From positions 30,827,599-30,891,598 of the forward strand of contig CM055097.1 of NCBI GenBank assembly GCA_029204225.1: DNA of 64,000 bases. Direction: 5' to 3'. A program made the translations under genes and the position numbers. Origin of the DNA: Diphasiastrum complanatum. Taxonomy: Eukaryota; Streptophyta; Lycopodiopsida; Lycopodiales; Lycopodiaceae. Shown here piece after piece: positions 14,866 to 46,159 of the stretch; position 1 is the stretch's first letter; each line of letters starts with the position of its first letter. The notes beneath the pieces were generated by a model, which made no database searches, was not told where the DNA came from, and worked only from the letters and a program-made list of their open reading frames with translations.

Positions 14866-16722
14866 ACGGTTTTGCCCGCTATTGTCTTGTGCTCTACCAC
14901 ATTATTGACATTTATATTTTGCTATACTTAATCTCTTTTGTTCTATGTTCAGATTTGTGTCGATATTGCTATGCTTTTCTTCATTTTGTCTGACTTTCTT
15001 GTTGTTCAATCTGGTAATTTATTATTAGCGAGCTATTATTAGTCTAGTTGTTGATGACTAATATTTAGTCTTGCCTTTCGCGAATCATTCACGATTGATT
15101 ATCAGTCAAGCTCAGTCTAGCTCTTCGCGAATCATTCGCGACTAATAATTTGTCTAGCTGATCGCGACAAATTATTCTTCTGATGTTTTGTTAATGTTTG
15201 GCTACGTAATCAAATCAACCATGATTTCTATCACTAACGTTCTGTTTGTTTTTTATAGGCGTAGTCATGCTTAGGGAAAGAGTGATATAGCTCATTCCGC
15301 TGCGCACGAACACTTTCTGTTCGAGTTCGTTTCTCGTTCGAGTTTCGAGTTCGTGTCTTTTTCATGTTCGTTTTATTTTAGAGCTATTTTTGTTTTTCAC
15401 GCACGACACACCCTCTTTCTCCAATATGGTATCAGAGCTATTTTTGTAGCCTGATAAGCTTTCACAGTACAAGACTCTACTAGCCGATAGAGTAATTGTT
15501 TTCTTGTTCTGTAACTTAGTGCCAGATTTTCATACTTAAGTCACTGATAGTTTTTCCTATCACTTAGACTAATCTTCCACATGGATTCCCAAGGGAAATC
15601 CAGTCCCATCATGGACAAGCTTGATGGAGCCAATTACCATCTATGGAAATTTAAGATGAAAATTGTACTAATGGCTAAAGAATTGTATGACGTTGTTACA
15701 GTGCAGAAGGGAAATCCAAAGTAGATGACGCAGCAATCGCCAGATGGAAGCTGAAGGATGGAAAGGCTTTTGCACTGATCATCCTCAACATTATAGATAC
15801 CCAGATCGGCCATGTATCCGAGGCCCAGACATCGAAAGAAGTCTGGGACATCTTGAGCACACTATACGAAGTGCAAGATATAGCCTCCAAGTTATATCTT
15901 AGGAGGAAATTTTACTCCCTCAAGATGGCGAATGGTAATTCCCTGCAGAATCACATCAATCAGTTCAAGAACCTGCTAAGGCAAATGGCCGCTATCGGAT
16001 CTGTCATAGATGATCAAGATACACTGATGCAACTGCTTACAAGCTTGCCAAGCTCATACGACAGCTGGGTGATGATCATCACGACACATCTAGAACTGAC
16101 TCTTTCGAGAGTCATTACTATGTTGTTGTAGGAAGACACGCGAAGGAACGAAGCCTCAAGTTCCTCAGTTGATTCTCACGCTTTATACACCAACAAGAGC
16201 ACGACTAAGCAGCAGAAGAAGAAAGGCCCGAAGCAATCAAGGCCAGACCAGAAACCACCACAGCACAAAGAATAGTCGAATCCGCAGACGAAGAAGAAGT
16301 TGTTCTGCAGATACTGCAAGCGAAACAACCACAAAATTCAAGATTGCCGGATACTGCATGCAAAGAACAACAACAAGGGGCAGTCGAATCAAGTGGCAAA
16401 TGCAGCTGCGGAAGTTCCACAGCCTATTCAAGAAGTGGATCATGATGCCTTCATGACCAACCATCAAGGAGCATCCAACGACAGTTCTTGGTTCCTGGAT
16501 TCCGGAGCCACTCAGCACATGACCATTTTGAGTCCTATACACCTTACAGTACCAAGAAATATGTTCACCTTGGTGACAATAGCACACAAGCTATTAAAGG
16601 TGAAGGTACTATAAGATTAAGCTTTGCAAATGATCAGTCTAAGCTACTTTCTAAAGTCCTGTATGTACCAAATTTGTCTACGAATCTACTCTCTGTAAGC
16701 AGAATTACAGATCTAGGACATA
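14866..16722 (+). mobile_element. Ty1/copia 5' part: LTR, Gag, protease
   Basis: An LTR-like region ends near 15,424. A primer-binding site matching initiator tRNA-Met (TGGTATCAGAGC) lies at 15427-15438. The Gag frame begins at 15581 (LDGANYHLWKFKMK), with a CCHC knuckle (CRYCKRNNHKIQDC, about 16,303) and the protease motif FLDSGATQHM (about 16,490). Copia sequence then stops and DNA transposon B sequence begins near 16,722; integrase and RT are absent. It is broken, with about four or more breaks. The LTR start is approximate and the second LTR is missing, so it cannot be dated. Confidence 0.85.
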
Positions 16723-17474
16723 GACATGTGGATATCCCTATTGATTTGGCACCTTTGCAGAGAAGAGGAGGCAAAGGAATTCAAATATCTGCTGAGGATC
16801 GTTCTCGTTACAGGGCAGAAGGAAAAAAAAACTTGGATTTATGGATAGATGGAACATTATATCCACAAGATTCAAGCACTTTGACACATCCCACATTCTC
16901 TTCAATAACTCATTTAGTTACATGGATATGCAATGTGCATAGTGGATTACTAGGATATTGTGAAAGATTGCAGAACCATGGAAAACAACTTTATATGAAT
17001 AAAGTTCACTTTTTAGAAGGTGAGTTAATTCAGATCCTCTTATTGTCAGAATAGAGATTGTCATCTCCAAAAGATGTTAGAAGAAAATGAACAACTTAAA
17101 AAAAATAATGAATCATTACAGAAGATAACAATCAATATCAAATCAGAACTAGAGCAAATGCAATCAGTCTTACAGTCTATTCGTATTAAAAACTTACAAT
17201 TATTGAAGGATGTGGATTTGGCAAAGAAGAGGGCTGAAAGTAAGAAGCGAAAGTGACAAAGTTGCAAGGATATTCAAACGCTTTCAAAAGGAGGTTATCG
17301 AAATAGAAGGATCCGTGCATTCAAGTAAGCATATTTTGAATTTTGTAAGTTTTTCAATGACATTTGGATTTAATTTCAGCTATGGTAATATTCTGTTAAC
17401 TATCTGTTTTTTTTGCAAATCTGCATTAGTAGCTCCTCAGAATATTAAAGACAATGCTTCACTAGGAATGTCCA
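16723..17474 (+). pseudogene. Element B transposase, N-terminal piece
   Basis: Translation matches the N-terminal third of the element A transposase (23289-26019, -): EGKKNLDLWIDGTLYP here against DGKKHIDLWVRGDLYP there, and SGLLGYC against NGLLGYC, followed by a coiled-coil stretch (LEENEQLKKNNESLQKI) at the place where A also has one. An open frame runs without interruption from the copia protease side across the junction into this piece. The rest of the gene continues at 32549, beyond element A and a copia insertion. Its start is lost at the copia junction, so this is a relic. Confidence 0.75.
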
Positions 17475-17477
17475 TTA

Positions 17478-17509
17478 GGGCCCTTTTTGGACTCAAAAAG
17501 GGCCTCTTC
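17478..17509 (+). repeat. Element A left terminal inverted repeat
   Basis: Starts GGGCCCTTTTTGGACTC and returns as AAAAAGGGCC, so the tip is a near-palindrome of about 27 bp that can form a hairpin. Sequence inside the match diverges from the right end, with only scattered similarity (aattataatta and related). Confidence 0.85.
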
Positions 17510-17811
17510 ACTAATTATAATTAGTGTTAATGACGACACGTGTCCCAATAAAATATTGACAATTGAGAGGGAATGGTCCGTATGACATGGCAAATTCAAT
17601 GGTGCAGATTAAATCAAGTGTGGGCCCACAAAGTACACCTCTAACATTAACCCTAGATAAAGCAATAACTATGCCTACAAGTAAACATCAACTAGCATGT
17701 CTATCTACTAGCAGCCTTATCCTAAGTGAGCCTAGTCCTTATTTCAAATTTTGAATGTTCACAAGCTTGTATCTCTCATCTCTCTCTCATTTTGTAGTCT
17801 CTCTCTAAACG

Positions 17812-17968
<157 letters not shown>

Positions 17969-18074
17969 TCTGTATACTCCACAGATATTCTATTTTTTTT
18001 TTTATTTTGGTTCACCTTATCTGAAGATCTACACACTGTTTCGCATATCCTACATTATCATTACATCATCCATT

Positions 18075-19434
18075 ATGGCCTCTACTCAATCAAGGAAGCC
18101 CAAGAATCAACTAGCTTCCATTGTTGCACACATCAAAGATTCCAATGAGCATTGGGTGCCCCATACATTTTCAACTTTTGACTAGGTTTACATGCAACCA
18201 TCGGGCAAAGGAACTCACAAGGTTGCAAAGAGGAAGCGAAACAACCAAGACTACCATTGGAAAGGAAGGATCCACGAATTCAAGATTGACCAAAACGGCG
18301 AATACCTTGCAAATGTGCAACACGTATACATGCGTCGAGATATTTTATTGGATGTGGCTATTGCTGATAGAACCATACAGTCACATTGTAGGTCTCACCT
18401 CTTTTATTCTTGTGTTAACTATTATGTTTGAATTATTATTATGTCATTGTAATGGATAATAATGTTGCATTAATGCCTAGTGCAGATGTCTTTCCTTCAA
18501 ATAGCTTCGACTGGCAAAACGTGAAGTCCTTCACTGGAAAATTCTCCGCCATACACGCCAAATATGGAGAACTAATATATGGTGGGTTGGCATCCTCTGC
18601 CCTGATCAAAATGGGCATTTTCTTTTACGATCACATGTACGAAGTTCCAAAAAAAAACTTTGGTCAAGGCAAATTAGCACCAACTTCTGAGCCTGCGATC
18701 AATTCTCACGAGTGGCCATATGTTGACCAACTGACTATTGAATTAACAAAGAGGCAATTTCTCAAAGAGATTATTGGTAATATGAAGCCAACATTCGGAT
18801 CCAAACGAGTCTACACTAGCATCTCTGTGCCGATCACCGTATTTGTTGCCATATTTAAGGCGGTCCCCTTTAGGAAAACAAACACGATGTGGGCATGGAA
18901 AGCAATAGAATCATCACTGTTGGACAACATATTTGTCGCATGGGATTCAAAGGAAATGGAGCATAAAGGATATTTAATAAGGTGTAAGCTCTCTTGTGAA
19001 ACAATGACCATAAGGTATCATATTTCACGTCAAACATGCTTCTTAAGTTTCATTTATAGGTGATATAAGTTTGGTCATGGCCGATGGGACCCTCTGGACG
19101 CGGAGACGAATCAGCAAGAAGTGGAGATATCCATACATTTGCCCCATGATGAAATACGAGAAATTCATATAAATAAGGAGTGCAGCCTAGAAGATCTTTG
19201 GCATATGCTTGGATTGACTTTTGTTGATGTGCCAGTAGACTTTGTCTTCACTCGTAATGGACAAAATGTGAGTACCTAATTTCCATCAGATTTCTGAATT
19301 TTAAATAGTAATGTTGAATAAATATAGGATTATTAACTTCGTGTCTGGTTTTGCAGATACAGAGACGAGCCGAAAAAGATCATGAATGTGTTTCATTTTT
19401 ACAAACAGGGACATTAGGAGTCCAATGGGAATAA
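18075..19434 (+). pseudogene. Element A gene 1: BAH-like protein, nearly intact
   Basis: Three exons, 18075-18387, 18486-19267 and 19357-19434, all GT-AG, about 390 codons. Exon 1 encodes a basic stretch and a BAH-like strand pattern (HWKGRIHEFK, VQHVYMRRDI). Exon 3 ends FLQTGTLGVQWE. The C-terminal part of exon 2 (VEISIHLP to FVFTRNGQN) has a ubiquitin-like beta-grasp flavour, which is speculative. The homologue in element B (34863-36193, -) has introns at the same two positions, and exon 2 is exactly 782 nt in both. Copy A carries two in-frame stops, a TAG at 18183 and a TGA at about 19061, so it is recorded as a pseudogene unless these are sequence errors. BAH domains in host proteins bind nucleosomes or modified histone tails; a chromatin role here is inferred. 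Confidence 0.6.
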
Positions 19435-19760
19435 AGGATTTAATCTAATGGAAAATAGAAAACACAATTAGTTGGTTGTGTTTTGACTCTATTCTAATAT
19501 ATTTGGTTACGTTTTGACGTTACTTTTGCGTTGTCACATTTTATATGTCTGTTACTACATTTGTGGATGTCCAAGGTTGAAACTTGTTAGGGTTTAAATC
19601 ATTTAGTGATATGCATTTTAATACTATTACTGGTTTTCTTCGAAGGTTTCTGCTAACTGGCAATTAGGATTTTTACTCATGGGCCTAGACAAGAACATAC
19701 TATATTTGGAAAAGAGCCCAAAATTTTTATAGAAGCACTTACTAAAAATAAAACCCTTAC

Positions 19761-19768
19761 TATATAAG
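19761..19768 (+). promoter_or_regulatory. TATA box of the histone H3-like gene
   Basis: TATATAAG lies 115 bases upstream of the ATG at 19883 in the gap between gene 1 and gene 2 of element A. The core matches the plant TATA consensus well and leaves room for a leader of about 85 bases. Confidence 0.5.
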
Positions 19769-19882
19769 GGTGCTTGGGTCCTCATTTCTCCACTTCATCC
19801 CTTGAGTGTCAGAGTGTCAATTTTTTTAAATTCTCTGTTTTTCATCTCTCGTGTTCTCTGATACGTTTTCAAAGGCTAACCA

Positions 19883-21091
19883 ATGTCAAAGGAAATGGCA
19901 CAGATGAAACAAACGACTAGAGATCCCAGAGTGACTGCATTGCTCCATAGGAATGCACTAGCCACCCTCGATGAGAGAGAGAGATGGGAGAGCAGAAGCA
20001 GGAGTAGGAGTTGCAGCCCTATAGCATCTCAGGAAGATCCGGCCACTCAGCGTGAAGCTGAGGAGGACATGGCCCATACAGCAGCTGCACAGGAGGACCA
20101 GACTGAGCAGCAGCAACAAGAAGACCAGCAGCAGCAGGAGGACCACCAACAACAGCAGCCAACACGAGAAAAAAGCCCTTCCCCGACAGCAACTGAGCGG
20201 GAGGAAACAATGAAGTTCCTAGATGAGGAGCTTGCGACATCGGGTGAGTTGCCGGTTCTGAATGATTATTTCTTCGACCCATTTCCACCAGCAATGGGCA
20301 TGGACACATCAAATTTAGGCATATCGGGGGACACCACACCCACCGTGTCACCTCCAAGTCACGACCCGGTGATGGGTCCGATGATGTCGTTGCTGGTGGG
20401 TGGTTCTGATGAGGGCACCCCGATGTCGAACACAACAAGGATGAAGCAGAAGGCGACCCATAGATGGTCAGAGAGAGGAGCACACGAGCAAAAAAGAAAG
20501 AATCCTCGAAGGCAGGGTCTACATCAAAGCGACGGAACCCTGCAGCTCAACAGCCATCACCACTGCCCACACCGCCAACATCGCCTCCACCACCTCCACC
20601 TCCACCGCCTCCGCCCCCATCGCCTCCACCACCACCTCCACCACCACCACCAACACCACCACCTCCACTGCCTCCAAGTTCTGCCGCAGCTGGCCCAAAT
20701 AGGACCGTAGAGCGTGGCAGGGGTAGGCCGGCCCCTTGTGCAGCACCATGGCCTGGAAAGGAGCTCCGTAGAATGCAGCCACCACCTCCTCGACTGCGTA
20801 GAAAGCGCATGATCGCAAAGTGGCTCCAGGATATACGGAGCTATCAGAAGTCCGTAAAATTTTTGATCCCTAGGGCCCCTTTTTGTGAGGCTTGTAAAAG
20901 AAATAGTCGATGAATTTTCCTTGGGGAACAGAGTTACGGCAGATGCGGTGTCCGCAATACAAGAGTCTGCGAAAATGTACCTAACGCAGCTCTTTGAGGA
21001 CTCATTTTTGTGTGCAATGCACGGGAAGAGAGTCACAATACTCCCGAAGGATCTCCACCTAGCTAGAAGGCTAAGGAGAGAGCGCAATTAA
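19883..21091 (+). pseudogene. Element A gene 2: histone H3-like protein with long tail
   Basis: The last 95 or so residues are an unmistakable H3 histone fold: alpha-N region LQDIRSYQKSVKFLI (H3: ALREIRKYQKSTELLI), then RLVKEIVDEFS, AVSAIQESAKMYLTQLFED and LCAMHGKRVTILPKDLHLAR, ending LRRERN. Ahead lies about 300 residues not found in H3: Ser/Arg and Gln/Glu-rich stretches, an acidic part (FLDEELATSGELPVLNDYFF), a Lys/Arg patch and a polyproline run (about 20,580-20,680). The usual H3 tail with K4, K9 and K27 is absent. The frame shifts twice, near the A6 run at about 20,490 and in the T5 run at about 20,880; both are homopolymers, so sequence error is possible. One base in the second joins PF directly to RLVKEI. 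Loop 1 has canonical H3 length, against CENP-A. Host capture is the likely origin. Confidence 0.85.
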
Positions 21092-21339
21092 AAATATCAT
21101 GTACATGATTTTATTTATAATATACTGGAGATTTGGTGTCAAGTATTTTCAATAATTTCAGGCTATGTGAATGCAAATTGTTGTGATTGAGTTTGATATC
21201 TGATTTCAGTACTGTTTATGTGAATGCAGTCATTTGAAAATTTTAGTATCATCTATGTGAATGCAGTGATTTAAAATTTTCAGTACTATGGGAATGGTAG
21301 TTTCTTTAACCATGTTGTAGCTAAGATAGGTTTCCATGT

Positions 21340-21432
21340 CATGGCATGGAAATCATGCAAGGCGCGACCAGGGGATGTTTGACCAGGTCAAACGGGCCCT
21401 GGTCGCTCCTTGGCGTGAAAATCACGCCACGT
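21340..21432. repeat. Hairpin between convergent genes of element A
   Basis: A stem of about 35 bp pairs catgGAAATCATGCaaGGCGCGACCAGG-like sequence with its inverted copy (CCTGGTCGCTCCTTGGCGTG), closing on an inner palindrome GTTTGACCAGGTCAAAC. It sits about 250 bases past the H3-like stop and about 120 before the end of gene 3. It could act in 3' end formation, or be a small insertion. Confidence 0.7.
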
Positions 21433-21552
21433 AAAAAAAGAAGGAAAAATCTTTATCAGAAAAAAAAATTAAAAATTCAATGAATAAGCACATCATATAA
21501 TGACAACAGAGAATTAGGAGAGTCCACAAGAAAAAAATGACAAAATCTTTAT

Positions 21553-23023
21553 TCACATTTGATCCATTTCCTTCAGAGAGGACTTCAGCTTCTCTGATCG
21601 CTTCTCTGATGACAGTACTGGTTTTAACATTTCTAATGCTAATTTAGGAGCATCTCCCTCATCCTCATAAGGGACAATTAAACCCGAGAAAATGAGCCGG
21701 GTCTCAAATCCAGGGCAGAAATCATTCAAAACGGCTTTTCGGAGGACACAGTAAGCCTTTGGCGTTGATAGTGACAAGTCCAGCTCACCAATGTGCTTGG
21801 AGAGTGCGCTGCATTTAAGAAGTTCTGTCTGTCCATCTGGGCTGTACTTGTTGCTGAAGCAGAAAATAAAGTTGTTGGGCAAGTTCCCAATGTAGTGGGC
21901 CATAGACCTGTCCATAGTTCCTGCTTCAACTTTCTCCCAAGAGCCACCCCTTCGCATTGCAAATGCATCAAGCTCCACTGCATTCTGCATTTGGTTCAAA
22001 TTATTGCAAAATGAGTATAATGAAGACAAACAAACATAACAAACACACGCAAGTTGAATTGTTGGGTCAGACTTGCCTCGGTGCCTTCATCAATGTCTTC
22101 GGTTTGCGCAAGGTCAATTCCTTTGCCTTTGTACTTTACGTCAGCAGTTTTTCCTTCGAGTACCTCAAATGGCCTCGTTTAAACTGGTGGTGGTTGAAGC
22201 GTTTTCAATTGGCAAAGCACCCTTTCCAGTGCTTGTTCGGTGGTGTCCGTGTCATGCCCGATCAACTTCTCATACGTGTAGTCGGGCTGGGTGTGGTCGA
22301 AAGTGGAACTGCCATTCTGCAAATTTACCAAAGCTACCAGCATCTCATCTTCTCACAAGCCGAGAATATGTTGCAAGTCATGCATAGACACATACTCCTG
22401 CCCATCAATGATGATTGGAGCAAGGCCATGGATTCGAAGCACGACATCATCGGACTCATCTATATCTTCTGGCTTCGCTAATGTGGATGCACATGTTGCC
22501 TCTTGCGCAGCCAATACTGCTTCGTGCTCAGCAGATAAATCTTCCTCTCACCCGGGTCGTTCATCTCGTTCACCTGCTCACTAGGATTGTGTTTGTTGCT
22601 GGCCACAATCGCTGGAAACTCATTAAGCAAAAAAATAACAGTAATCTCACCAGATAGAAACTTCTTTCCTACACTTTCAAGATCAAAAGTTTTCAGCTGA
22701 TCCTTGGTCAGCTCCAAGTAATGATCGTTACCCAAGTGACTAATAAATCTATTGAGATGAGCGATAAAGGGTCTATCTCTTTTCCATATATAACTAAGCA
22801 AGTTATATGGAATCCACATGATAGTTGAGCCAGGAATTTGTATGGCATAAGGCTTCAAAGTTTCATCAATATACTCACTCACGTACGTGAATGCATCCGT
22901 ATTAGCCCGTAGAGTGGCAAGCGTGTCTATTTTATCGGTAAACATACAATAAATACGATCTAACTGATCTAAAAACTCTGTGGGGGCTAGCAGATTGGCC
23001 AACTCTATTTTAGGGGACGACAT
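21553..23023 (-). pseudogene. Element A gene 3: unknown conserved protein
   Basis: Minus-strand gene of about 450 residues starting MSSPKIELANLLAPTEFLDQL at 23023. Later parts read EDIDESDDVVLRIHGLAPII, DGQEYVSMHDLQHILGL, an acidic linker, then after an intron AVELDAFAMRRGGSW and LPNNFIFCFSNKYSPDGQ to the stop at 21553. The intron (21985-22075) has a GC donor in a perfect AG|GCAAGT context and an AG acceptor, and joins the frames exactly. The first exon is interrupted by at least two frame breaks or stops (around 22,300-22,480 and 22,180). Element B has a homologue (34027 to about 34,710) with the intron at the equivalent place. I recognise no family. It is conserved across two diverged elements, so it is probably needed by the element, for example as a transposase partner. 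Confidence 0.6.
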
Positions 23024-23288
23024 TGTTATGCAACTAAGAACACTAATTGACTAGCAAACTAGTAGTCTAATTGAACAAGTCAAGCTAAATTATGAGGAAA
23101 CAAATTTCAACAAAGCAAGAAGTGACAACAAAATGAAAACCCCCACTCTTATATAGAGGGATGTGTATCCAAAAATAGATATTATTATAAAACCAAATAA
23201 AATAATTTTTGTTTATAGCAACAATCAAATTTGGCAGTAATATTTATCACAAAGGAATATTCGAATTACAATTCAACATAAATTGTTT

Positions 23289-26019
23289 CTATTCCATCTC
23301 ATCAGTTTCCGTAGTTTCTCTAGCGCTGTCCAAAACATTGGATGTTGGTGTCCTCGGCATCCATCTCTTTCCAACTCGGACTCTAGACATCCTCCATTCT
23401 TGATGCCTTGTTTTAGCATTAGAGGACTGCCATGCTGTCTTTCTGACTGAATTTGAATTGGAGATCATTGAACACAACTCTTCAGTTCTTGTGTTTTGAA
23501 AGTGTCCTCGGCCCAAAACTCCTCTGTAAAACCATTGGAATATCTCAACCAATGCATTGCTAAGACCCTTTCCTCCGCCATGTCGTGAATTTTTGAAATA
23601 CGCAGCCTTTGCCTTGTAATGACTCTTTTCCATGCCTTGCGTATTCCAAATAGCTAATGATCCATAGGTTTTCATAAACCAAAGTCCATGAGCATAGAAG
23701 ATGTGCTGTTCATAGAAAATTTGTATTAGTTTAAATCTTTACAAATACATAAATACGAAAGTAAAAAATATGAGGCACACATACCATATAGTGAGTTATG
23801 TGTGTTTCTCCCCATGCATCGATCATCAATTCAGTAAATGTTTTGACTTCTCTTGCGTATCTATCCAAATCTTCATCTCTCACAATCTTTTTGTTGATAG
23901 TTTGTGACAAGGCATCAAATGCTTGCCAAACCTTAGCACATGTACTTGCCATGCGAGGATCTGAGCCAATATTTGTTGTGCATTGACATATTTTCCTCCA
24001 ATACTTCCATTCAACACTGCTTTCACGTGCAGTATGATTTGACAATAGGTTTCTCGCTTTCGCACCACCCATTGAAACTTTTGCTGGAACATCTTGCATT
24101 TTTCCACTCATCTCAACGTCTTTAGTAAGACTCACGTGGCCCCCGTGCAATCCCATATCGGATAAAATTATCTCTACATTTCTAATGCTAACATCTGCTC
24201 TTGATTTGGGCTGCATGTTCCATGCGTAACAACAATGCAAAAATAATAATTTGTCTAGTATTCGTAATTCACCATGCATTGTGCAAAAATGGACTCTTTC
24301 GAGAGGAATGTTCAACACAGGACTCCAAGCTTTGTCTAGATTTTGCCTATTTGGTGCAAGACGTTGGTTGCAATTCAAAATACTTTTGTTCCACCCAGAT
24401 TCAAACATACAATATATACAAAAATTCTTTGCATTTGCACCGAGACCACAACCGTACATGTATTTCAAAATCTTCAAATCAGCAGCTAGGTGCCATTCTA
24501 CAGCAAAGCTTTCTCCTTCAACATTGAGCAATTTGCCTTCATTTTGTGCATGTATTATCTTAGATATACTACATTTTTCAAATAGCCACTCTAGTACGTC
24601 GTGAGACTCCTTAGGAACTTCAAATGCAGCTATCCACCATATGTGATTTTCGGATTGCACGCTAAATTCTTTATAATAACTTCCGCCAAACTGTTGCAAT
24701 TCACGATTCATCAAGGTGATTGTGACATGTTCAAGTTTACGTCCTTTTACGATTTCTGTTTCGTCCAACTTAATAACAAATATAACTTTACAATCGCAAT
24801 CTGTAAAACAGAAATTTCATTACTAAAACATATTAGTTGAAGAAAAGCATACAATTGAAAACCGAAATCCACAATAAATGTTCTTACCATTTGTTCTAAC
24901 TTCGTAATGTCGGATCATCATCGCTTGGACCTTTTCCAGATCTAAGAACATATTATTGCCTTGATGATAACAAAAACATGTCGGAGGTCCTTTCTTCTTA
25001 TTGGTTACTGTAAAAGAATCCTCAATATGTTGAAACTCCCCTAATTCAGAGAGCAATATTGAATCTCATTCTCGTTTGGCGGATTCAACAAGTTTATAAG
25101 TAGGTATTATTTGATGGTGTTTTAACCCATTTTTCACAGAGCGTTTCATATACTTCTTCAAAGCTCTATACCCCTTGCGACTCACACCTCCTTGGTCACA
25201 TGCGTACACCATCTCTTTAACATTTGGATTTGGCTTGAACTTGTCGACTAGCTTTTTTGCAATTCTCAAGCGAATTGAATCACTTGTTTCATCTTCCACA
25301 ATCTTAATCAAATCTTTACCCTTCAAAAAATGTTTCATATATTTTTCGGCAATAAAATCTTTTCCAACCGTCTTTTTCAAGAACTCTTTTGTGTCCCTCA
25401 TACGTCTTTTACTGGCACCACCACCTGGTGCCAAAGCTTCTAGTTTCTGTCTCTTAGTGTTTTCATTTTCTGCTTGCTGATCCATCGAGACTCTACACTT
25501 TCGTTGTAAGCCATATATTGTCCTCTGAAATATATTGATTGAAAATTGCAATTCTTCAATTTTTGCGATAGAACTGGCAAGCTCTATTTTCAAACCATTT
25601 ATCTCATGCTCCAATTTCATATTTATTCCATGCAATGACTTTAAATTGTCATTCATACTCAATATATGAATGTTTGCCGGATTTTCCAATGTCTCAGCTT
25701 GAATTCTTCGAGAATCCATTGCTTGACAATAGCCAAGCAGTCCATTCCGACCATCCCCAACGAACCTTAACAAACTATGTACATCAAAAAATTTAGGAGG
25801 AGCATCTACTAGTGGATTATGAGGGTATAAATCACCTCTTACCCATAGGTCAATATGTTTTTTTCCATCTAATCTCCAACAATGCATGTCATACGGATTT
25901 AAGTTAACACCCCATGCAGCTTTGGTGGTAGCATAATCCTTCTCTAACTTCACATGTAAGTGATACTTGGTTGTCATCTTGAAGATGTCGAATTTCCCAA
26001 AAGAATCTATGTAGAACAT
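23289..26019 (-). CDS. Element A gene 4: RNase H-like transposase
   Basis: Three exons on the minus strand, 26019-24888, 24800-23785 and 23705-23289, with clean GT-AG introns of 87 and 79 bp, about 854 codons. In order: an N-terminal domain (KKHIDLWVRGDLYP), a coiled coil (about residues 135-190), a basic helical part (VSRKGYRALKKYMK), and the catalytic-like core. Core motifs are VIKLDETE (D390), WHLAADLKILKYM (D485), a CIYC zinc-type pair (505-508) and VHFCTMHGELRILD (H553, E555). The acids and the CxxC pair are kept in element B. The C-terminus has YGSLAIWNTQGMEKSHY. From memory this layout resembles transposase-like proteins abundant in cnidarian genomes. One in-frame TGA lies at about 25,066; otherwise it is open. 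Residue roles are inferred. Confidence 0.72.
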
Positions 26020-26353
26020 TACAATATACCTTAATCAAACGGTGTCAAAGTTCAATGTGAACTGACCATGATATAAGATTTATTAGGCATATACTAGTTT
26101 CCATCCCTAGGGTCCTATTGTAGTTAGGACAATGAAAGGTCGTCCTATACTAACCGTACTCTAGTTGTAATTTGTAACTTACCTATTAGTTGCCTATTAT
26201 AGTCTATGCAAATAACCTACAATAGTCTATGAAAATGAGACCTACATTTAGGCCTTAACTCTTGCTCACCTTGTATGGTAACCCAAGGTAAAGGTGCCAC
26301 GTAGGATTAATTAGCACTAAATTAATTATGATTAGAAAACTTGTTTAGGCAAG

Positions 26354-26384
26354 GAAGAGGCCCTTTTTGAGTCCAAAAAGGGCC
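26354..26384 (-). repeat. Element A right terminal inverted repeat
   Basis: Inverted copy of the left end, read inward as GGCCCTTTTTGGACTCAAAA followed by AGGGCCTCTTC. The adjacent TTA at 26385-26387 repeats the TTA left of the element. The next bases, AATGA from 26387, are also the target duplication of the neighbouring copia. Confidence 0.85.
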
Positions 26385-27125
26385 TTAATGATGTAAAAAT
26401 TACAGCAAATAAGGATCCTAAAACACTTGAAATGATGAGGGAAACAATAGATTATGATTTCATAAGATTAGCACAAGTTGAACCATCAAAATCCATCAAA
26501 AATCTATGCTTGAACCTCACTAAATGGCCCAAATCTTTGAAGAAGGCTTCACACGTGTGAAAGTACGGCCCCCCACAGTCTGAGTACTGTACACTAGACC
26601 TACATTCAATCCTATAATCATTAGTAATCACAAGTACTCAAACAATTATGAACATAGAGAGCAATTGCACCATTATGAGAGAAAAACATGAAATTGCTTG
26701 ATTTATTTTGGTGAGATATCATCACCTATATATACATGATCCATCACGGTTTTGGGCAGGTATGAGTAGCCCTAAACCTATCCCTAATGCTAATTTTGGT
26801 GGATCTTTCATCCCTACCAAGTTAGGGTTGGAATCTTGGAGATCCCTCAACAATGCAAAAATTACCAAAAATAGCTCCTATTTTTTCTCCCTTGTATCTA
26901 AGCATAATTTGGACTCATTCCAAAGGTTCTAACACTTAGGTCTACTTGAGAACATCCTTATGAATGGAATCCTATGCTATTTGGCACGTGTGACAAGCCA
27001 CATCATGACCATCTAACTATTTACAAGTCATATGACCAAAACTAGTCAAGCTAGAATTGTGAATTTTTAACACTCCTCCTCACTATCTAGCTTGGTTCAA
27101 TCATTGCTTTACTAATCACTCCAAG

Positions 27126-30100
27126 TTATGATCTGAACTTCATAAAAGGTGTCTTTTGAAGTGGTTTAGTAAGTAGATCAGCTACACATTCATTGCTTGG
27201 AACATGCTCCAAAGCAATCTCCTTGGCTTGCACCATTTCTCTCACAAAGTGATGGCATATCTCAATGTGCTTAGATCTTGCATGGAAGATTAGGTTAGAT
27301 GCAAGGTGTTGGGCTGATATATTGTCATTGTAGATGATTGGTGCCTCCTCTGAATCCATGATCTTTAGTTCCACCAATAATCTCTTGATCCAAAGTACCT
27401 CCTTTGTAGTGGTTGTCAAAGCTTTGTACTCGGCCTCGGTTGAAGATAGAGATATAGTTTCTTGCTTTTTTGAAAGCCATGAAACCACACCTTCTCCTAT
27501 GAAAGTTGAATAGGCACTTGTTGATTTCCTATCCCTCTTGTCCCCTGCAAAATCTGAATCACTAAATGCATGAAGGTTAATCACATCTCCTCTATATAGA
27601 ATCCCAAAATCCAATGTACCCGAGATGTATCTTAGAATCCTCTTAGTCTTTTTCCTATGGATATTCAATGGATTTTGCATGGATTGGCTCAACCTACATA
27701 CACTAAAGCTAAGATCTGGTTTAGTTAAAGTGATCCACATTAAGGAACCTATAAGTTGCCTAAACAAAGTGATGTCCATGAAGGATCTTTCATCATCTTC
27801 ATTTGGCACTTTTACATCTTGCTCCATTGGTGTGTCAACACTTTTGCATACTTCCATCTTAAACTTCTTCAAAAGACTTTGAGCATAGTTTACTTGACTT
27901 ATAAAGATAAAATCAGACCCTCTAAGTACTTCTATGCCTAAGATGAAGTGAAGACACCCTAGATCTACCATCTTGAACTCTAAGGATAGATCTATCTTGA
28001 TTTTTTCAATACCATCAACACTATTTCCACTAATGATGATGTCATCTACATAAATGAGTAAAAGTACAATACCAACATCATCAAACTTAATGTAAAGAGT
28101 GGGATCATATTCACTTTGAACAAAAGAAAGTGAAATAAGATAGCAATGTAGTCTTGAATTCCAAGATCTCGAGGCTTGCTTCAAGCCATAGATGCTTCTT
28201 TGGAGATGGCATACTTTGTTCTCCATTCCATGCTTGATGAACCCTTGTGGCTGCTCCATATAGATATCCTCTTCCAAAAAACCATTCAAGAAAGCATTAG
28301 AGACATCCATTTGACATAGAATCCATCCAAAATGTGATGCAAGTGCAATGATTAGTCTTATTGTGACCATCTTGGCCACGGGTGCAAAAGTTTCCTCATA
28401 GTCTATCCCTCTCTCTTGAGCATAACCTTTTGCAACTAATCTTGCTTTATGTTTGTTAACACTCCCATTTGCATTCAACTTAAGCTTGAAGACCCACTTG
28501 CATCCTATTACATTCCTTTGAGGTCTCTCAACAAGCAACCAAGTTTCATTCTCAATCAAGGCATCATACTCATCCAACATAGCTTTATACCATTCTTTGG
28601 AGTTCAATGCATCTTCAACATTAGACGGTTCTTCAAAACTAGATAAAGCATAAGAAGTGGATGATATACCCTCAACTTGCTGTCCTTTGCCTTGATATGT
28701 GAGCCTTGATGGCTCCACTTTTGCCCTTGAAGATCTCCTTGGTGTGATAGGTGGGTTTGGTGCTTGCTCCTCCATGAGCTCCTCCTCAAAACCAAGATCT
28801 TGCTCCTCGGCCATCTTCTTCTTGATTGTTGGAGCACTTGAGCCTTCTTCAAGCATATGCATATGATGTTCATCAAAGATGACATCCCTTGAAACAACAA
28901 ATTTGTTCAAGGATGGGAGATAGACTTTGTAGCCCTTGCTTGAGCTTGCATATCCAAGCATGATCCCTCTTGTGGAAGATGGATCCTCCTTGGTTCTTGT
29001 TTCCAATGGCACATGCACATAACATATACACCCAAAAACTTTCAAGTGATTAAGATTGGGTTTCTTTCCATACAACATCTCATATGGAGTTTTGCCTTCA
29101 ATTGCTTTGCAAGACACCCTATTCATCAAGTAGTTTGCACATACAAGAGACTCACCCCAAAAGGATTTGGGCAAACAAGCATCTAATCTTAAAGCCTTAG
29201 AACATTCACATAATGTTCTATTCCTTCTTTCAGCAACTCCATTTTGTTGAGGAGTGTAAGGACAAGAAGTCTCTTTATTGATCCCTTCCTCCTCACAAAA
29301 GGCCTTGAACTCATTGGAGATGAATTCTCCACCATTGTCACTTCTAAGAATCTTGATGCTATGATTATGATGCTTTTCCACAAACAACTTGAACTTTACA
29401 AAAGTATCAAATACTTGAGACTTGAAGGAAAGTAAGAACACCCAACAATATCTTGAGTAGTCATCAATGAAGGTTAAAAACATGGATGAACCTCCATTAG
29501 ATTTGGTGCTAGCAATGTGCACATCCGAGTGTATGAGTTCAAGAGGATGAGATGACTTTGTGATGGATTTAGGAAACACCTTCTTATGTGCCTTGGATAA
29601 GGCACAAGCTTCACAAACCTTGTCTTCCTTCCCAATAGACCTTGGTAGGCCTAAAGCATACTCCTCCTTGATCATAGCCTCCATGGAACCCGAGTTGACA
29701 TGTCCAAGTCTTTTGTGCCATAAAGTAAAGGTAGATATCTTGCTCTTCTCGGCCAACATGACAACATTAGTATCCACAAATGCATCCAGCTTATAAAGTT
29801 TGCCAAGTCTAGTGCCCTTAGCCACTATCTTACCCTTCTTCTTGATGAAACATTCATTTGAAGCAAAGTCAACATTGAAACCATTGTCTACCATTTGGCC
29901 AACACTTAGTAGATTCTTTGTTATTGTAGGAATGTACAAAACACCTTCTATGTTGATCTTTTTGGAAGATCCTAAGCAAAGGGGAATGCTACCAACTCCT
30001 TCAATCTTACAAGCTTCATCATTTGCTGTATAGATAGACTTTATAGGTCCATCATAAGATAAGAGAGAAGAGAAAAACTCCCTTTTACTAGTCATGTGTG

Positions 30101-31055
30101 AACTAGCACCCGAGTCAATCCACCAAGGATCTTCTCCTTTGAAGCTTGTTGAAGAAAATATGGACATCATGAGAGAGTCCTCATGTGAACTCTCCTCCTC
30201 CTCCTCTTTGCTCATGTTGGCTTGGCTTTGATCTTGCTTCCTCTTGAAGCATTCCGAGGCATAATGCCCCATCTTGCTACAATAGTAGCACTTCACCTTT
30301 GATTTGTCCTTCTTGACTTTGGTGGTTGATGGAGATGCCTTTGGGGGTCCTTCTTGATCCTCAAGCTTTGTAGACTTCTTGAATGTTGATCCTTTGCCTT
30401 TGGACTTGCCTTTGCCTTTGGTGAAGAGAGCTTGGTCATATCCACCTTGGATGGAAAGCCTATCCATCCTCTCTTGCATTTGGCTCCTTCTTGATTCCTC
30501 GGCCATGAGTGTGCCTTGGAGTTCTTCAAGTATGGGTAGCTTACCCATAATTGCATATCCCTGAACCAAATTGTCAAATTCAAAGCTTAGTCCATTCAAT
30601 ATGAGTTGAACAAGCTCTTCATCCTTGATAGGGTCACCTATAAAGGCTAGCTCTTTGTTCAATTCCTTCACTCTTAGGACAAAAGTATGTGCACTCTCTC
30701 CTTTCTTTTGATAGCTTCTATAGATTTGATTCTTCAAAGCTAACATTCTAGTTTGGTTCTTGGATTCATAGACCTTTTGCAAAGTCTCCCAAGCATCTTG
30801 AGCTGAAGTGCAATCTCCTACCTCTCTTAAGAGTTCATTTGCAACATTCATTTTTATGCAATGTAGTGCAACATTGCACCTCTTGATGTATTTGGCTTTT
30901 TCTTGAGGATGAATAGGTTCACCCTCCTTACCATTTACAATTTCCATCAGATCTTGCATGATCATAATAGATTCCATTCTAACTTTCCATATGGAATAGT
31001 TATTTTTGTTGAGCCTTTCATTAGTATCCAAAAGATATGCATTTATAGATGCCAT
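27126..31055 (-). CDS. Gag-Pol polyprotein of the young copia
   Basis: A single open frame of 1309 residues with domains in copia order. Gag has NNYSIWKVRMESIM near residue 20 and a CCHC knuckle CYYCSKMGHYASEC near 256. Protease has WWIDSGASSHMT near 312. Integrase has the WHKRLGHVN zinc region and a DDE core with FIDDYSRYCWVF and SDNGGEF. RT has VSNAFLNGFLEEDIYMEQP, YGLKQASRSW and YVDDIIIS. RNase H has SDSDFAGD and LSSTEAEY. Length and order are those of an autonomous Ty1/copia element. Confidence 0.95.
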   Translation of the reverse strand: MASINAYLLDTNERLNKNNYSIWKVRMESIMIMQDLMEIVNGKEGEPIHPQEKAKYIKRCNVALHCIKMNVANELLREVGDCTSAQDAWETLQKVYESKNQTRMLALKNQIYRSYQKKGESAHTFVLRVKELNKELAFIGDPIKDEELVQLILNGLSFEFDNLVQGYAIMGKLPILEELQGTLMAEESRRSQMQERMDRLSIQGGYDQALFTKGKGKSKGKGSTFKKSTKLEDQEGPPKASPSTTKVKKDKSKVKCYYCSKMGHYASECFKRKQDQSQANMSKEEEEESSHEDSLMMSIFSSTSFKGEDPWWIDSGASSHMTSKREFFSSLLSYDGPIKSIYTANDEACKIEGVGSIPLCLGSSKKINIEGVLYIPTITKNLLSVGQMVDNGFNVDFASNECFIKKKGKIVAKGTRLGKLYKLDAFVDTNVVMLAEKSKISTFTLWHKRLGHVNSGSMEAMIKEEYALGLPRSIGKEDKVCEACALSKAHKKVFPKSITKSSHPLELIHSDVHIASTKSNGGSSMFLTFIDDYSRYCWVFLLSFKSQVFDTFVKFKLFVEKHHNHSIKILRSDNGGEFISNEFKAFCEEEGINKETSCPYTPQQNGVAERRNRTLCECSKALRLDACLPKSFWGESLVCANYLMNRVSCKAIEGKTPYEMLYGKKPNLNHLKVFGCICYVHVPLETRTKEDPSSTRGIMLGYASSSKGYKVYLPSLNKFVVSRDVIFDEHHMHMLEEGSSAPTIKKKMAEEQDLGFEEELMEEQAPNPPITPRRSSRAKVEPSRLTYQGKGQQVEGISSTSYALSSFEEPSNVEDALNSKEWYKAMLDEYDALIENETWLLVERPQRNVIGCKWVFKLKLNANGSVNKHKARLVAKGYAQERGIDYEETFAPVAKMVTIRLIIALASHFGWILCQMDVSNAFLNGFLEEDIYMEQPQGFIKHGMENKVCHLQRSIYGLKQASRSWNSRLHCYLISLSFVQSEYDPTLYIKFDDVGIVLLLIYVDDIIISGNSVDGIEKIKIDLSLEFKMVDLGCLHFILGIEVLRGSDFIFISQVNYAQSLLKKFKMEVCKSVDTPMEQDVKVPNEDDERSFMDITLFRQLIGSLMWITLTKPDLSFSVCRLSQSMQNPLNIHRKKTKRILRYISGTLDFGILYRGDVINLHAFSDSDFAGDKRDRKSTSAYSTFIGEGVVSWLSKKQETISLSSTEAEYKALTTTTKEVLWIKRLLVELKIMDSEEAPIIYNDNISAQHLASNLIFHARSKHIEICHHFVREMVQAKEIALEHVPSNECVADLLTKPLQKTPFMKFRS

Positions 31056-31853
31056 CTAGTCTCCTAATCAAGGACTTGACACAAATGAAGGTTACTTCTA
31101 TTGATTTGATTGAAGGTCTACCTTATCCCACTTCTTAGGGACCTGAAAAGATCAGTAATAGACTTCCTATAAAGATCTAAGAATGATCTCTAACAAAATC
31201 AAATCATAGAATACTAGAGACAATGCACTTGCTTGATTGAAGTAGACAATACTAGTAGAATTGCCCCTCTTTCTATAAAGAGCATTAAAGCTTCCAAATG
31301 ATCTGATCAAGAGTGAATTTCAGCAACCTAATATACTTCCAAAATCACTTGTAAAAGATCTAAATGGAACTTAATGAGGATGCAACACAATCTACTATCC
31401 AATCACAAGCAAAAAATGATCAAAATTGATGAAAAATTGATCTAATTTGGTGCATAAGTCAAGCAATGGTTGGACTGAACCTAAATCACTTTAGGAGGTG
31501 CCTACTACACCTTAGAACAGCCTTGAAGAGTCCCCAAAACTCTGATCTTCCCTCTCCTTGAATGCTAGAAAGCCTCCTCTATGAAATCACCTCCAAAACT
31601 CGCTTAGAAATCAATGCTTGGAGCAAGCAAAACTTGCTATCTTGGTAATGTGAATTGAATTCAACTTTGCCTCTGGTTTTAGACACCTAAACACCTGCAA
31701 ATGAAGTCACACAACACCAATCTCCAATGTATTTGACTCACTTTGAGTTCTAGAATCAATACTAGATGCTAAGATCCAATCTACACAAGATTTAGATCAA
31801 AAATTGTGATCAAATTGAATGAAAACCAAGGATTTAGCTCATTTCAGCCTTTA

Positions 31854-31866
31854 GGCTCTGATACCA
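31854..31866 (-). promoter_or_regulatory. Primer-binding site (tRNA-iMet) of the young copia
   Basis: TGGTATCAGAGCC directly abuts the 5' LTR on the minus strand, complementary to the 3' end of plant initiator methionine tRNA. Confidence 0.9.
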
Positions 31867-32553
31867 TGTAAAAATTACAGCAAATAAGGATCCTAAAACA
31901 CTTGAAATGATGAGGGAAACAATAGATTATGATTTCATAAGATTAGCACAAGTTGAACCATCAAAATCCATCAAAAATCTATGCTTGAACCTCACTAAAT
32001 GGCCCAAATCCTTGAAGAAGGCTTCACACGTGTGAAAGTACGGCCTCCCACAGTCTGAGTACTGTACACCAGACCTACATTCAATCCTATAATCATTAGT
32101 AATCACAAGTACTCAAACAATTATGAACATAGAGAGCAATTGCACCATTATGAGAGAAAAAACATGAAATTGCTTGATTTATTTTGGTGAGATATCATCA
32201 CCTATATATACATGATCCATCACGGTTTTGGGCAGGTATGAGTAGCCCTAAACCTATCCCTAATGCTAATTTTGGTGGATCTTTCATCCCTACCAAGTTA
32301 GGGTTGGAATCTTGGAGATCCCTCAACAATGCAAAAATTACCAAAAATAGCTCCTGTTTTTTCTCCCTTGTATCTAAGCATAATTTGGACTCATTCCAAA
32401 GGTTCTAACACTTAGGTCTACTTGAGAACATCCTTATGAATGGAATCCTATGCTATTTGGCACGTGTGACAAGCCACATCATGACCATCTAACTATTTAC
32501 AAGTCATATGACCAAAACTAGTCAAGCTAGAATTGTGAATTTTTAACAAATGA

Positions 32554-33978
32554 TTGGGCACAATATTGACTTGCAAATCCACTGAGCGTATCATGATGAA
32601 CAATAGGAATTCAAATGTAAAATGTAAAATAACAGAGTCTTTGATGGTGGACATTCAAATTTTTTTAGATAAGACTATAGTTCAGGGTGCTTGTGATTTT
32701 GCAGGTATTAGCAGGGAAGCATATGCAACAATATTTAAAATAATTAGAGAAGCTTTTAAGCAAGTTCAAATTAGAAAAGTCCCAATCCCTAGGACATATC
32801 ACTTGAAGAAAGAGAGAGATACATTAAACATAGGTATGCATAAGGTCACTGGAACTCCATTTCATATTGAGGAGGTGTATGAAACTGATGGAAGATCGAT
32901 ATTCTATAATTCATCAAACAATTTATTTGTTGATCTAAATTGCGTGCTAAGATACATCATCACATTCTATGATATAACCTATGAAAAGGTGAATGGCAAG
33001 ATAATCATAGTACTTAAGTTAGATGAGTCAGAAATTGTGAAAGGGCAGAAGATGGAGAGGGTTAGAATAACTCTCATGAATGGTGCTCTATCACAAACAG
33101 AGAACCAAGAAGATTTCAGATTCAGTATCCAGTCAGAAAATGATATATGGTGGTTGGCAGCGTTTCAGGTAACTAGCCTCATTATTACATTACATTCATT
33201 GAATAGTATTAATACATTGTAAACTAAGTCTGATTAATTCTTTGGACAGGTGCTGAAAGAGGATCATGATATATTATCATGGATATTCTCAAGGACATCT
33301 TATCCTAGGATCATCAAGGACCATATGGATGGAGGACTTCTCAATGTTCTAGGAGTTGGAGACTTCAATGTTGAATGGTACTTAATAGGTGATTTGAAAA
33401 CATTGAAATGTATGTATAATGTCTCTCACGGTGCTACATCAAAACACCCTTGTTTGTACTGCATGAAAATGACAAAAGATGTAACTAGGAGTACATGAAT
33501 TACTAGAGAATATGCAGATCCAAACTGGAAGCCTGTGTCGTCTATCCCCTTAAAAAATGTGCATGTTTGCACTCTTCATGTAGAAGTTAGATTAATAGAA
33601 AAGATCATTTATCTTCATATAGTTATTGCTTGGAATACTAAGCCAGCATCATTAGCAAAGGAAGCTATCTCTTGATTAGAAGATGTTTTATCAAAAGCAG
33701 GACTCCATAAAGGACATGTCAAAATTCAAAAAGATGAAAAGCTTTCAAGAAAGAATGGGAATATGCCAACTAAGCCAAGCATAGGAGGAGCAAAAGCATG
33801 TCGTTTTCTATCAAATCATACTGGTAAGGCTTCTAATATTCAACACTCAGTCTGGACGATTATTATTACTGCCACTCAGGACTTCGAGAAAGACGGCAAA
33901 ACCAGAGTACTAAAAGTTGATGTATGGAAAAAGCTTGATAGTATGATTGCTATTTTAAGAAAACAAATTCATTGAACA
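32554..33978 (+). pseudogene. Element B transposase, C-terminal piece
   Basis: Homologous to residues about 310-700 of the element A transposase. Shared motifs include ISREAYATIFKIIREAFK, PFHIEEVYETDG, VLKLDESEIVKGQKMERV, WYLIGDLKTLKCMY, the CLYC pair, VHVCTLHVEVRLIEK and GGAKACRFLSNHTGKASN. A GT-AG intron (33169-33249) splits AAFQ|VLKED at a place where A has no intron, while A's 87-bp intron is absent here. There are two in-frame stops after the CLYC region (about 33,496 and 33,673). The frame ends at 33,978 without the YGSLAIW C-terminus. It is dead, but it keeps both candidate catalytic Asp residues and the HxE motif. Confidence 0.75.
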
Positions 33979-34026
33979 CCCAATGTAAATGTATTGATTG
34001 TATCATACCAAAATACAAAGTATCAA

Positions 34027-34710
34027 CTATTCATCATCAGATCTTGTATCAGATTCTATGGCAGTATTGTCATGAAGAAATTCTCTGCTAGCGTATGCAT
34101 CTAATAGATGTGCATTATCCTTATTTCCACTAAGCTCAATATAAGTGGAATACAATGAATAATGGGAGCTCCTTAAAGGAACATTCCCATCAGTAAAGCC
34201 TAAAATGTTCAAAACATAAGATCTTTTGACAAAAATGATCTTATTTGTCTTAACAAATTTATGTCCTCCTAGGTAAAATGATAAAGCTTTAACTGCCATT
34301 ATAAGACTCTCCCCGACTGGGCTTAGCTTGGAATGAACAATACAAATCTCATTCTTCAGGAAATGCCTAAGATAGTGGCCCAGTCCACTGTCCCTCTGGA
34401 ACGAGGATGTGTGTTGTCTGAAACCACTTCGTCTCGCAGCAAAATTATCTATTATGAGAGCATCCTGCAATAGAAAATATGTTAGCAAAAACACATTCAG
34501 TGATTGAAAACATTCCAATGCAAGAAAGATTAAACACTTACACATTCTTCATCATCAGCAACAACCAGATCAAGATGATCAATATAATGACCACGTACTG
34601 AAGTCGAATCATTAGTAAAATGCATTAATGATGGACGAGGGAAGCCCATCTGGGATTGAAATGCTGTGAATTCTTCATTGGATGGTCTGCCTCGCCCATC
34701 GTCAAATGCT
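34027..34710 (-). pseudogene. Element B gene 3 homologue, partial
   Basis: Two exons on the minus strand: about 34,710-34,542 (FDDGRGRPSNEEFTAF, YIDHLDLVVADDEEC) and 34464-34027 (ALIIDNFAARRSGF to SDTRSDDE), joined by a GT-AG intron (34465-34541). The last exon is 438 nt here and 432 nt in element A, and both begin with an (A)xxxDxFAxRR block after the intron. The N-terminal half present in A is not seen. The function is unknown. It ends about 50 bases from the end of the transposase frame, facing it. Confidence 0.6.
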
Positions 34711-34862
34711 GCTCCAGTTTATAAATTTGGGAGCACAAAATACATGTATAGATGCCCAACTTGGGCTTTCATTTATTGAATGAAAGAGTGTATACACAGA
34801 TTTTTACTAAAGTTTAATTGAAATTGTTCTCCCACAATGGTGATTGTTGTAGGTAGATCTTT

Positions 34863-36193: not shown

Positions 36194-36403
36194 TGCTATT
36201 TTCAAAGCTTGGGCGCCAAAAATCTCTTTGATATGATACTTAATTTCAAGTTTTCGTATCACATTTAATCTAATGTGAATGCCAACATAGTCACATTTTA
36301 TGTAACTGTACATACTATATTTCTATAACTGTAACTAGTATAGTTAGAAAATTTCATTATACTAACCAGCATAGTCAAGTAAATTTAACTTGAGGTATTG
36401 ACG

Positions 36404-36470: not shown

Positions 36471-36700
36471 CAAATTTCAAAGTTTTCTATATTGCATTTT
36501 TATTTTTTAGTTAATTTGAACTACATTACGTAGATTTCAAATCTGTGCATTTTGATTGGGCCTGGTGACGGTCGAAACTAAAGAAAAAAAAATAAAAGTA
36601 TCTTTACAAAGGGTCTTTTTGATATTGAGAACTCCTCTAATGTATTCTACACCTCTTCTCGAAGAATCGACATGTGTGATGGACTCTGTTTTGAATGTAC

Positions 36701-37080
36701 TCAACATGGCATCCTCATTAAACCCAATCCCCCTACTGACATACCAACATCTAGCACAGTATGTGTGTCATCGACAACTCTTTCAAATGTGGCGGAATCA
36801 ATTCCATCCCTTTTAACAACATCATGCACTTGCTCCAACTCATGAGGAAGAAGCCTCTTCTTTGTTCTTCTCATTCCCTCTAGTCTATTCTTCCTCTCCG
36901 ATCTAGACTCTAACTCTGGCGTCCTGTCACATCCTCAATAACACGGATGATAGATGCAGATGATAATGCCCTTCGCACAACGTTGCGTTTTCTATTCAAC
37001 CTCCTCCTCCTTGCGGACCGGCTCTCACCCTCTGGAGTAATGTACGAAAGATTGTTCCTCACATACTCAGGGGTGTCCAT
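36701..37080 (-). pseudogene. Small basic protein frame, unidentified
   Basis: From the ATG at 37080 the minus strand reads MDTPEYVRNNLSYITPEGE, then an Arg-rich run (RSARRRRLNRKRNVVRR) and IIRVIEDV, reaching a TAG after about 54 codons. An adjacent frame continues with RSERKNRLEGMRRTKKRLL and ELEQVHDVVKRDG to a stop at 36701. The two parts join in character (basic, helical), so one frameshift in a single small gene is likely. I do not recognise it. It could be a further gene of element B or a host relic. It is not an H3 tail that I can recognise. Confidence 0.4.
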
Positions 37081-37470
37081 GCTCTATTCTACATAAAATT
37101 TTCTCTTCTTCAGAAACAAATACCTGTGGAATTGAAACACAAATTATTAGATATGTTGTAAATTTTTTTGAAAATAACAAAACAATTGTTGATTGCAGCC
37201 GAAAAACAGAAAAACATATAATTAAAAAAAGTTTGAACATACACACTACTTGATTAAGGGTGATAATCTAATTTGATACTCTAAGGGTGATACTCTTCAT
37301 GGATGATACTCTAATTTGAACTTGATATTAATTATAATTACAATGTTTAGACCACCCCTTCAGCTCTCATTGTTGTAGGACTGTAGGGAACGGGTCGGCG
37401 TAGCCCTTTTTGGTACTTGCGACTATGCGGGAGGGCATTTTGATTGGCCAAAAAACCTCTGCTAACATCT

Positions 37471-46158: not shown

Positions 46159-46159
46159 A

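Follow-up and report, generated by a model that had tools for sequence, protein, structure and literature searches.

DNA transposons that carry a histone H3-like gene have been described in fungi. A hAT transposon of Pyrenophora tritici-repentis carries the H3-like gene H3L (PMC3538342), and a hAT transposon with an H3-like sequence is described for Pseudocercospora fijiensis and its relatives (PMC6710886). Here we describe an H3-like gene at 19883..21091 of a 64,000-nucleotide stretch of the clubmoss Diphasiastrum complanatum (the window: assembly GCA_029204225.1, contig CM055097.1, positions 30,827,599 to 30,891,598 of the forward strand). The gene lies inside a DNA transposon that we call E1, and relatives of the element are found at many places in the genome.

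The Pyrenophora hAT is, like E1, a multicopy element whose inverted ends enclose an H3-like gene, a transposase and a gene of unknown nature. Its H3L is neither a plain H3 nor a CenH3 and has a tail with insertions; the element H3 described here has such a tail too, and it is no plain H3 and very probably no CenH3. That element belongs to a fungus, uses a hAT transposase and occurs as 26 near-identical recent copies with expressed sequence tags (PMC3538342), whereas the clubmoss element belongs to a plant, encodes an enzyme with a predicted RAG1 fold, occurs in several old types and bears an H3 that keeps an ARTKQTAR-like start and has lost K9. The Pseudocercospora hAT also resembles E1, being an element of about 9.5 kb with hundreds of H3-like copies; there, repeat-induced point mutation has inactivated every copy except the original, and the target-site duplication is 8 bp (PMC6710886). 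The clubmoss family differs from it in having some open frames, a ratio of nonsynonymous to synonymous differences (pN/pS) below 1, and no target-site duplication at E1.

Pack-MULEs and other gene-capturing transposons of plants mostly hold gene fragments and lack a transposase. The clubmoss element is similar in being a plant DNA transposon with a host-derived gene, but it encodes a transposase itself, and the H3 belongs to its standing gene set. Plant transduplication is also mentioned in the Pyrenophora report (PMC3538342). The open-licence papers listed by our searches included the two fungal hAT cases, and among them we found no H3-bearing transposon of a plant and no RAG1-type transposon of a lycophyte; a first protein search gave general H3s only. 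The initial annotation knew of no plant DNA transposon family with H3 cargo. This holds for plants within our search, but fungal hAT precedents exist (PMC3538342, PMC6710886), and because of them the H3-bearing DNA transposon is a known kind. As far as we have seen, the host kingdom, the transposase, the age, the company of genes and the tail are new.

The H3-like gene of the window

The gene and its parts are as follows.

19883..21091, + strand: H3-like gene, in a copy broken by frame shifts (frame comparison, Pfam and PDB matches)
19761..19767, + strand: TATA box (TATATAA) of the H3-like gene
19898..19924, + strand: tail module, H3 residues 1-9 (AQMKQTTRD in the window; ARTKQTARD in most E1 copies)
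20821..21088, + strand: histone fold (Pfam, PDB, copy comparison)

The start of the gene is ATG 19883, and a second in-frame ATG lies at 19895. The C-terminal H3 fold named by the initial annotation was recovered by both searches: the piece 20870-21088 (+) matches PF00125 in Pfam (5.4e-20, positions 58-122) and solved H3 chains among the PDB sequences (1.3e-19). Its proposal of a TATA box also held, as the same TATATAA is present in 13/13 E1-type copies compared, window included. The helix IRSYQKSVKFLIPRAPF, upstream of the C-terminal piece, is in a different frame (20464-20913), and the frame break is one additional T within a T run near 20879-20883. A second frame shift lies farther upstream, within the linker, and with these two shifts the window copy of the H3 is broken. 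The T-run break is absent from all 13 E1-type loci, where the fold is one match in a single frame, with the caveats that L024 covers residues 1-122 only, that L009 has a stop near the end and that the loci were picked by histone score. In an E1-type copy, 50 of the 89 fold residues are identical to host H3.

A chance likeness to H3 was rejected on the PF00125 and solved-H3 matches and on the pairing of transposases with H3 across the genome (see below). We also rejected a host H3 gene merely adjoining the element, given that the gene has the same position in many copies. The element in the window is thus dead, and what stands at 19883-21091 is the decayed form of an H3-variant gene that has long been a standing component of a DNA transposon family of D. 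complanatum with several genes. We regard the identity as an H3 variant and the integration in a transposon family as almost certain.

H3 is a shared part of a transposon family

The inverted ends reported by the initial annotation enclose the gene as described, at a good distance on either side.

17473..26390: element E1, whole, 8918 bp (inverted ends; L011 alignment; empty site in L019)
17473..17509, + strand: left terminal inverted repeat, itself almost palindromic (repeat comparison)
26354..26390, - strand: right terminal inverted repeat (repeat comparison)

The ends, 37 bp long and 97% alike, read CATTAGGGCCC. Across E1 the gene order is BAH-like (+), H3 (+), unknown (-, unk2 and unk1) and transposase (-). 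Another copy, L011, aligns with E1 over 8829/8918 bp at 94-95%, continuously through the H3; a late separate insertion of the H3 was rejected on this uninterrupted alignment and on the lack of H3-specific boundaries. The only gap relative to L011 is 89 bp (window 19577-19665) upstream of the H3; this stretch is carried by the window copy, L015, L020, L024 and L028 and is missing from the other aligned E1 copies.

We searched the 1.745-Gb genome for H3-like and transposase copies. With 150 out of 6325 candidates scored, at least 153 histone matches were found, of which 13 are near-canonical. There are at least 150 E1-type matches (74-93% alike) and at least 150 matches of a second type, E2 (87-100%). 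Some copies are near-identical pairs (e.g. L015/L020, one on a small contig), so the counts are not wholly independent. Among the matches listed, the E1 type is spread over contigs C1 to C24.

Copy sample 1 consisted of 20 of the first 25 divergent histone places, 10 kb each, and held 13 E1-type loci, 6 E2-type loci and one of a third type (L013). The E1-type loci have unk2 in 13/13, the BAH-like gene in 10/13 (on the other strand in L024) and the transposase in 10/13; the corresponding E2-type figures are 3/6, 4/6 and 5/6. L013 has unk1 and unk2, with no transposase or BAH-like match. Sample 2 (every fourth of 79 listed places, 20 in all, 1.75 kb each) gave 13 E2-like loci (L048 at just 52%), 5 E1-like (L038 at 61%) and 2 of the L013 type, one of which, L031, has a transposase end directly upstream. 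Relative to E1, the E2-type L026 has unk2 and H3 reversed with respect to the transposase and BAH-like gene, and in L025 the transposase pieces are turned round again compared with L026.

The search was also led from the transposase. A listed H3 lay within 8 kb of, and facing, 51 of 113 transposase matches, at 2.2-3.1 kb in 48 of these 51, and five shifts of the H3 list gave 0 pairs. H3 is present in types whose transposases are 39-43% alike. The plant DNA transposon with H3 cargo proposed by the initial annotation is thus real and present in many copies, but its capture cannot be called recent, because three diverged types carry H3.

The element H3 keeps the start of the tail and lacks K9

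Tails were scanned at 41 loci (40 fetched plus the window) with a pattern that leaves positions 4 and 9 free: Met; A/S/D/T/V/I at 1; R/Q/K/S at 2; Q/S at 5; T at 6; R/K at 8. A matching tail was found at 32 loci, with K4 in 31/32 and K9 in 0/32. Residue 9 is D in 13 and G in 2 E1-type tails, D in 14 E2-type tails, E in L013, V in L033 and A in L048. The nine unmatched tails are cut off, decayed, replaced or off-pattern (DRRKQTRTD in L025, IDRRRQTRRD in L043). The host H3 tail, MARTKQTARKSTGG..., has K9 at 8/8 loci. By reading, the ARTKQTAR-like start of the element H3 is not continued by the remainder of the canonical H3 tail.

In the E1-type copy L010, the protein begins MSEEMARTKQTARDPRVT..., continues with a long SR/Q/E/poly-P linker and then has the fold; counted from its first Met it comprises 416 residues. 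L012, L015 and L028 share this frame with one stop and L021 with two, which favours a single long frame over a gene split by an intron. E2-type tails read MDRRKQTRRD...; in 10/15 the frame is unbroken from tail through fold and continues past the fold, and closed frames are 140 to 294 residues long. Past the fold, L025, L026, L027, L034, L037 and L045-L047 have a basic stretch, e.g. KRPRKQTAPKRAPKKVKP, which resembles PRKQ...KKP in the tail of canonical H3, possibly by chance. The tails of L013 and L033 are MARTKQTARE... and MARTKQTTKV..., each broken before the fold, and the L048 tail is MARTESTARA.... L013 holds a second, diverged H3-like gene at 6094-6335 with the tail ARAKQTTRAD.

Constraint among the copies

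All pN/pS values are pooled and uncorrected for multiple hits. The initial annotation had suggested looking for selection among copies, and the fold indeed gave ratios below 1: 0.34 in E1, with 0.97 in the linker (12 copies), and 0.25 in E2, with 0.45 in the tail (11 stop-free copies). In eight copies chosen by their transposase, a sample biased towards decay, the fold gave 0.54 (bootstrap 0.40-0.80) and the linker 1.20 (0.89-1.64). Values were 0.30 for the BAH-like gene (8 E1 loci) and 0.49 and 0.50 for the unknown genes (12 and 9 loci). These ratios reflect ancestry more than current use; many copies are dead, and the constraint is the trace of past lines.

Other genes of E1 and the transposase

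18075..19290, + strand: BAH-like neighbour gene, at least 2 exons, 3' end approximate (in-frame stops 18183-18185 and 19061-19063 in the window copy)
21553..23050, - strand: gene(s) of unknown function, unk2 (21553-22086) and unk1 (22478-23050), conserved in other copies
23289..26034, - strand: transposase gene with a predicted RAG1 fold (predicted structure; exon joins by eye)
Transposase catalytic and zinc codons, - strand: D 24763-24765, D 24478-24480, CxxC 24418-24420/24409-24411, H 23703-23705 and 23688-23690, E 23628-23630

The initial annotation placed the H3 between a BAH-like and an unknown gene. The positions are right, but the BAH identity did not find support, as neither Pfam nor the PDB sequences gave a BAH domain match. 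Where the window copy has an in-frame TGA at 18183, L011 and L017 encode W. No credible Pfam family was obtained for the transposase, the BAH-like gene or unk1 and unk2.

In its predicted structure, the transposase has a RAG1-type core fold that bears the DDE as well as the C2H2 zinc residues. Its profile search of the PDB gave 0 matches up to E 10. A contig search gave 83 transposase relatives, a search of viral contigs gave none, and no RAG2 relative was identified. Joined E1 flanks are held uninterrupted (568/601) by the E2-type copy L019, an empty site, so E1 was inserted without a target-site duplication. No consistent repeat was found at five further pairs of ends (L012: 2 matching bases). 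MITE-like (miniature inverted-repeat transposable element) derivatives of the family, 1.1-1.2 kb with E1 ends and subterminal stretches, occur at L019:7723-8897 and L022:149-1238 (H3 oriented +).

The heptamer of the recombination signal sequence (RSS) is CACNNTG, and CACTA (CMC) transposons have CACTA ends and a 2-3-bp duplication. Transib and RAG-like elements have RSS-heptamer-like ends and a 5-bp target-site duplication, whereas the ends of E1 are different and the L019 empty site reveals no duplication; the CACTA ends and duplication are both absent at E1. The 8-bp duplication given for hAT (PMC6710886) is absent as well. Compared with RAG1, ProtoRAG and Transib (PMC4411706, PMC4914335), E1 stands apart in its lack of a PDB sequence match, its plant host and the H3 and other genes aboard.

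Nested elements and other features of the window

26392..32548, - strand: long terminal repeat (LTR) retrotransposon, younger than E1, at the E1 right end; duplication AATGA; LTRs 99.3% alike
16695..17472, + strand: left part (transposase part) of E2, an older relative into which E1 was inserted (sequence comparison with E1, L019)
32554..36223, mixed strands: right part of E2, with transposase (+), unk2-like (-) and BAH-like (-) genes (comparison with E1)

The retrotransposon is probably of the Copia type, judging from its open reading frame. We found no H3 in the right part of E2 (32554..36223), and in the window as a whole a profile built from four general H3s detected just the one H3. The H3 of this E2 copy has apparently been lost: its unk2 and BAH-like gene are 0.4 kb apart, whereas L026 and L025, which have the H3 between the two, show distances of 3.6 and 4.1 kb. 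A coding-looking stretch without an E1 match lies upstream of the E2 BAH-like gene (36529-37083, -). The window also holds large direct duplications at 41325-49888 (e.g. 43469-46158 vs 46949-49651, 95%) and a fold-back of inverted repeats of 1 kb, about 84% alike, at 13098-14279.

Discussion

The H3 is probably of use to the element. As the best overall explanation we favour, as reasonably likely, an old H3 variant that is a standing gene of the transposon; its most likely mechanism, which taken alone we rate as less likely than not, would be the formation of anti-silencing nucleosomes. In this mechanism, the element H3 would pair with host H4 and be built into nucleosomes, either on copies of the element or at the sites and times of transposase activity. 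Such nucleosomes would be unable to take K9, K27 or K36 methylation, and the element would thereby stay readable and cuttable. The retained module of residues 1 to 8 could still meet K4 writers and readers, K4 remaining in most types. We propose only tentatively that element chromatin may in this way be shielded from H3K9 silencing or readied for the transposase. The suggestion of the initial annotation that the H3 may mark, displace or target nucleosomes would thereby gain one concrete form, given a tail that lacks K9 and mostly retains K4. More speculatively, a RAG1-type transposon lineage in land plants might have evolved a long-kept H3 variant whose K9-less, K4-bearing nucleosomes render the chromatin of the element insensitive to silencing through H3K9 and accessible to its transposase.

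Several observations weigh against the favoured explanation. The plain reading of the tails is that only residues 1-8 were held and the remainder drifted, and the loss of K9 could be mere drift of everything past residue 8; its loss by selection is the bolder reading. K4 is lost in L048 as well, the ARTKQTAR start of E1 has MSEE in front of it if translation begins at the first ATG, and D in place of A1 in E2 would weaken K4 reading. The low pN/pS of the H3-chosen samples stems in part from picking the copies on their histone score. The E2 fold gave 0.27 in 7 stop-bearing copies, barely above the stop-free ones, and the E1 transposase pieces gave 0.66, 1.03 and 1.07 (6, 7 and 8 loci), with tnpB and tnpC at about 1. 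L010 is the sole unbroken E1-type copy from tail to fold among 15 with a readable tail, the window being among the 14 broken. An identical TAG site lies in the fold of 5/18 E2 copies (L029, L030, L032, L039, L043); because a line with a broken H3 has spread, the H3 is not needed in cis. Finally, after the window was dropped from the 62 transposase matches without a listed H3, we examined the first 40 of the remaining 61; 2 ran off the contig, and the 38 places read gave 18 with a whole, partial or decayed H3 and 20 with none. The initial annotation would have taken H3-less copies beside a separate H3 insertion, or the want of a second copy, as a refutation. On the whole this is not what we found, as there are many copies and no boundaries belonging to the H3 itself, yet these 20 places and the window E2 are without it.

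The broken E1-type frames, the spread E2 line and the H3-less places would all suit a passenger, i.e. a host H3 captured long ago and amplified with the element without being of use, as proposed for some fungal hAT elements; among the fungal precedents of an amplified H3, it was inactivated in one case (PMC6710886). We consider this unlikely, as H3 was retained across types with such diverged transposases, the fold has pN/pS well below 1 against about 1 in the E1 linker, and residues 1-8 and the TATA box are conserved. The H3 may instead serve the transposase directly. RAG-type transposases have a partner protein that recognises histone tails: the PHD of RAG2 binds H3K4me3. Here a predicted RAG1-fold enzyme, an H3 and a putative reader occur together in one element, and K4 is retained in nearly all tails. 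The H3 tail and fold could then serve the cut-and-paste complex through contacts with the BAH-like partner, with the transposase or with histone chaperones, or could absorb host chaperones or K4 readers, without lasting nucleosomes. Such a cofactor or lure is not very likely, given that no RAG2 relative was identified, that Pfam and the PDB sequences did not confirm the BAH label of the partner, and that the entire histone fold is retained, beyond what a lure requires.

A CenH3 adopted by the element, steering it towards or away from centromeres, is very improbable. The tail start and a LIPRAPF stretch are reminiscent of plant CenH3, and by reading, loop 1 of E2 is one residue longer. However, loop 1 of E1, likewise by reading, has the canonical length, the best 60 PDB matches for each of the two queries, E1 and E2, carry the names of ordinary H3 proteins, and E1-type matches are listed on contigs C1 to C24. 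A tree with two CenH3 folds (93 columns, support 59/67) places the element H3 neither with CenH3 nor apart from it.

Host silencing of plant transposons rests on marks on H3. If the anti-silencing reading is true, an element that supplies an H3 lacking the silenced lysine would counter its host in the nucleosome itself, and the family would provide a natural K9-less H3 for testing. The presence in a clubmoss of a predicted RAG1-fold transposase, accompanied by a histone but by no known RAG2, bears on the origin of the dependence of RAG-type enzymes on histone tails. Together with the fungal hAT cases, the clubmoss family suggests repeated uptake of H3 by DNA transposons in different kingdoms and with different transposases, for which a common cause should be sought.
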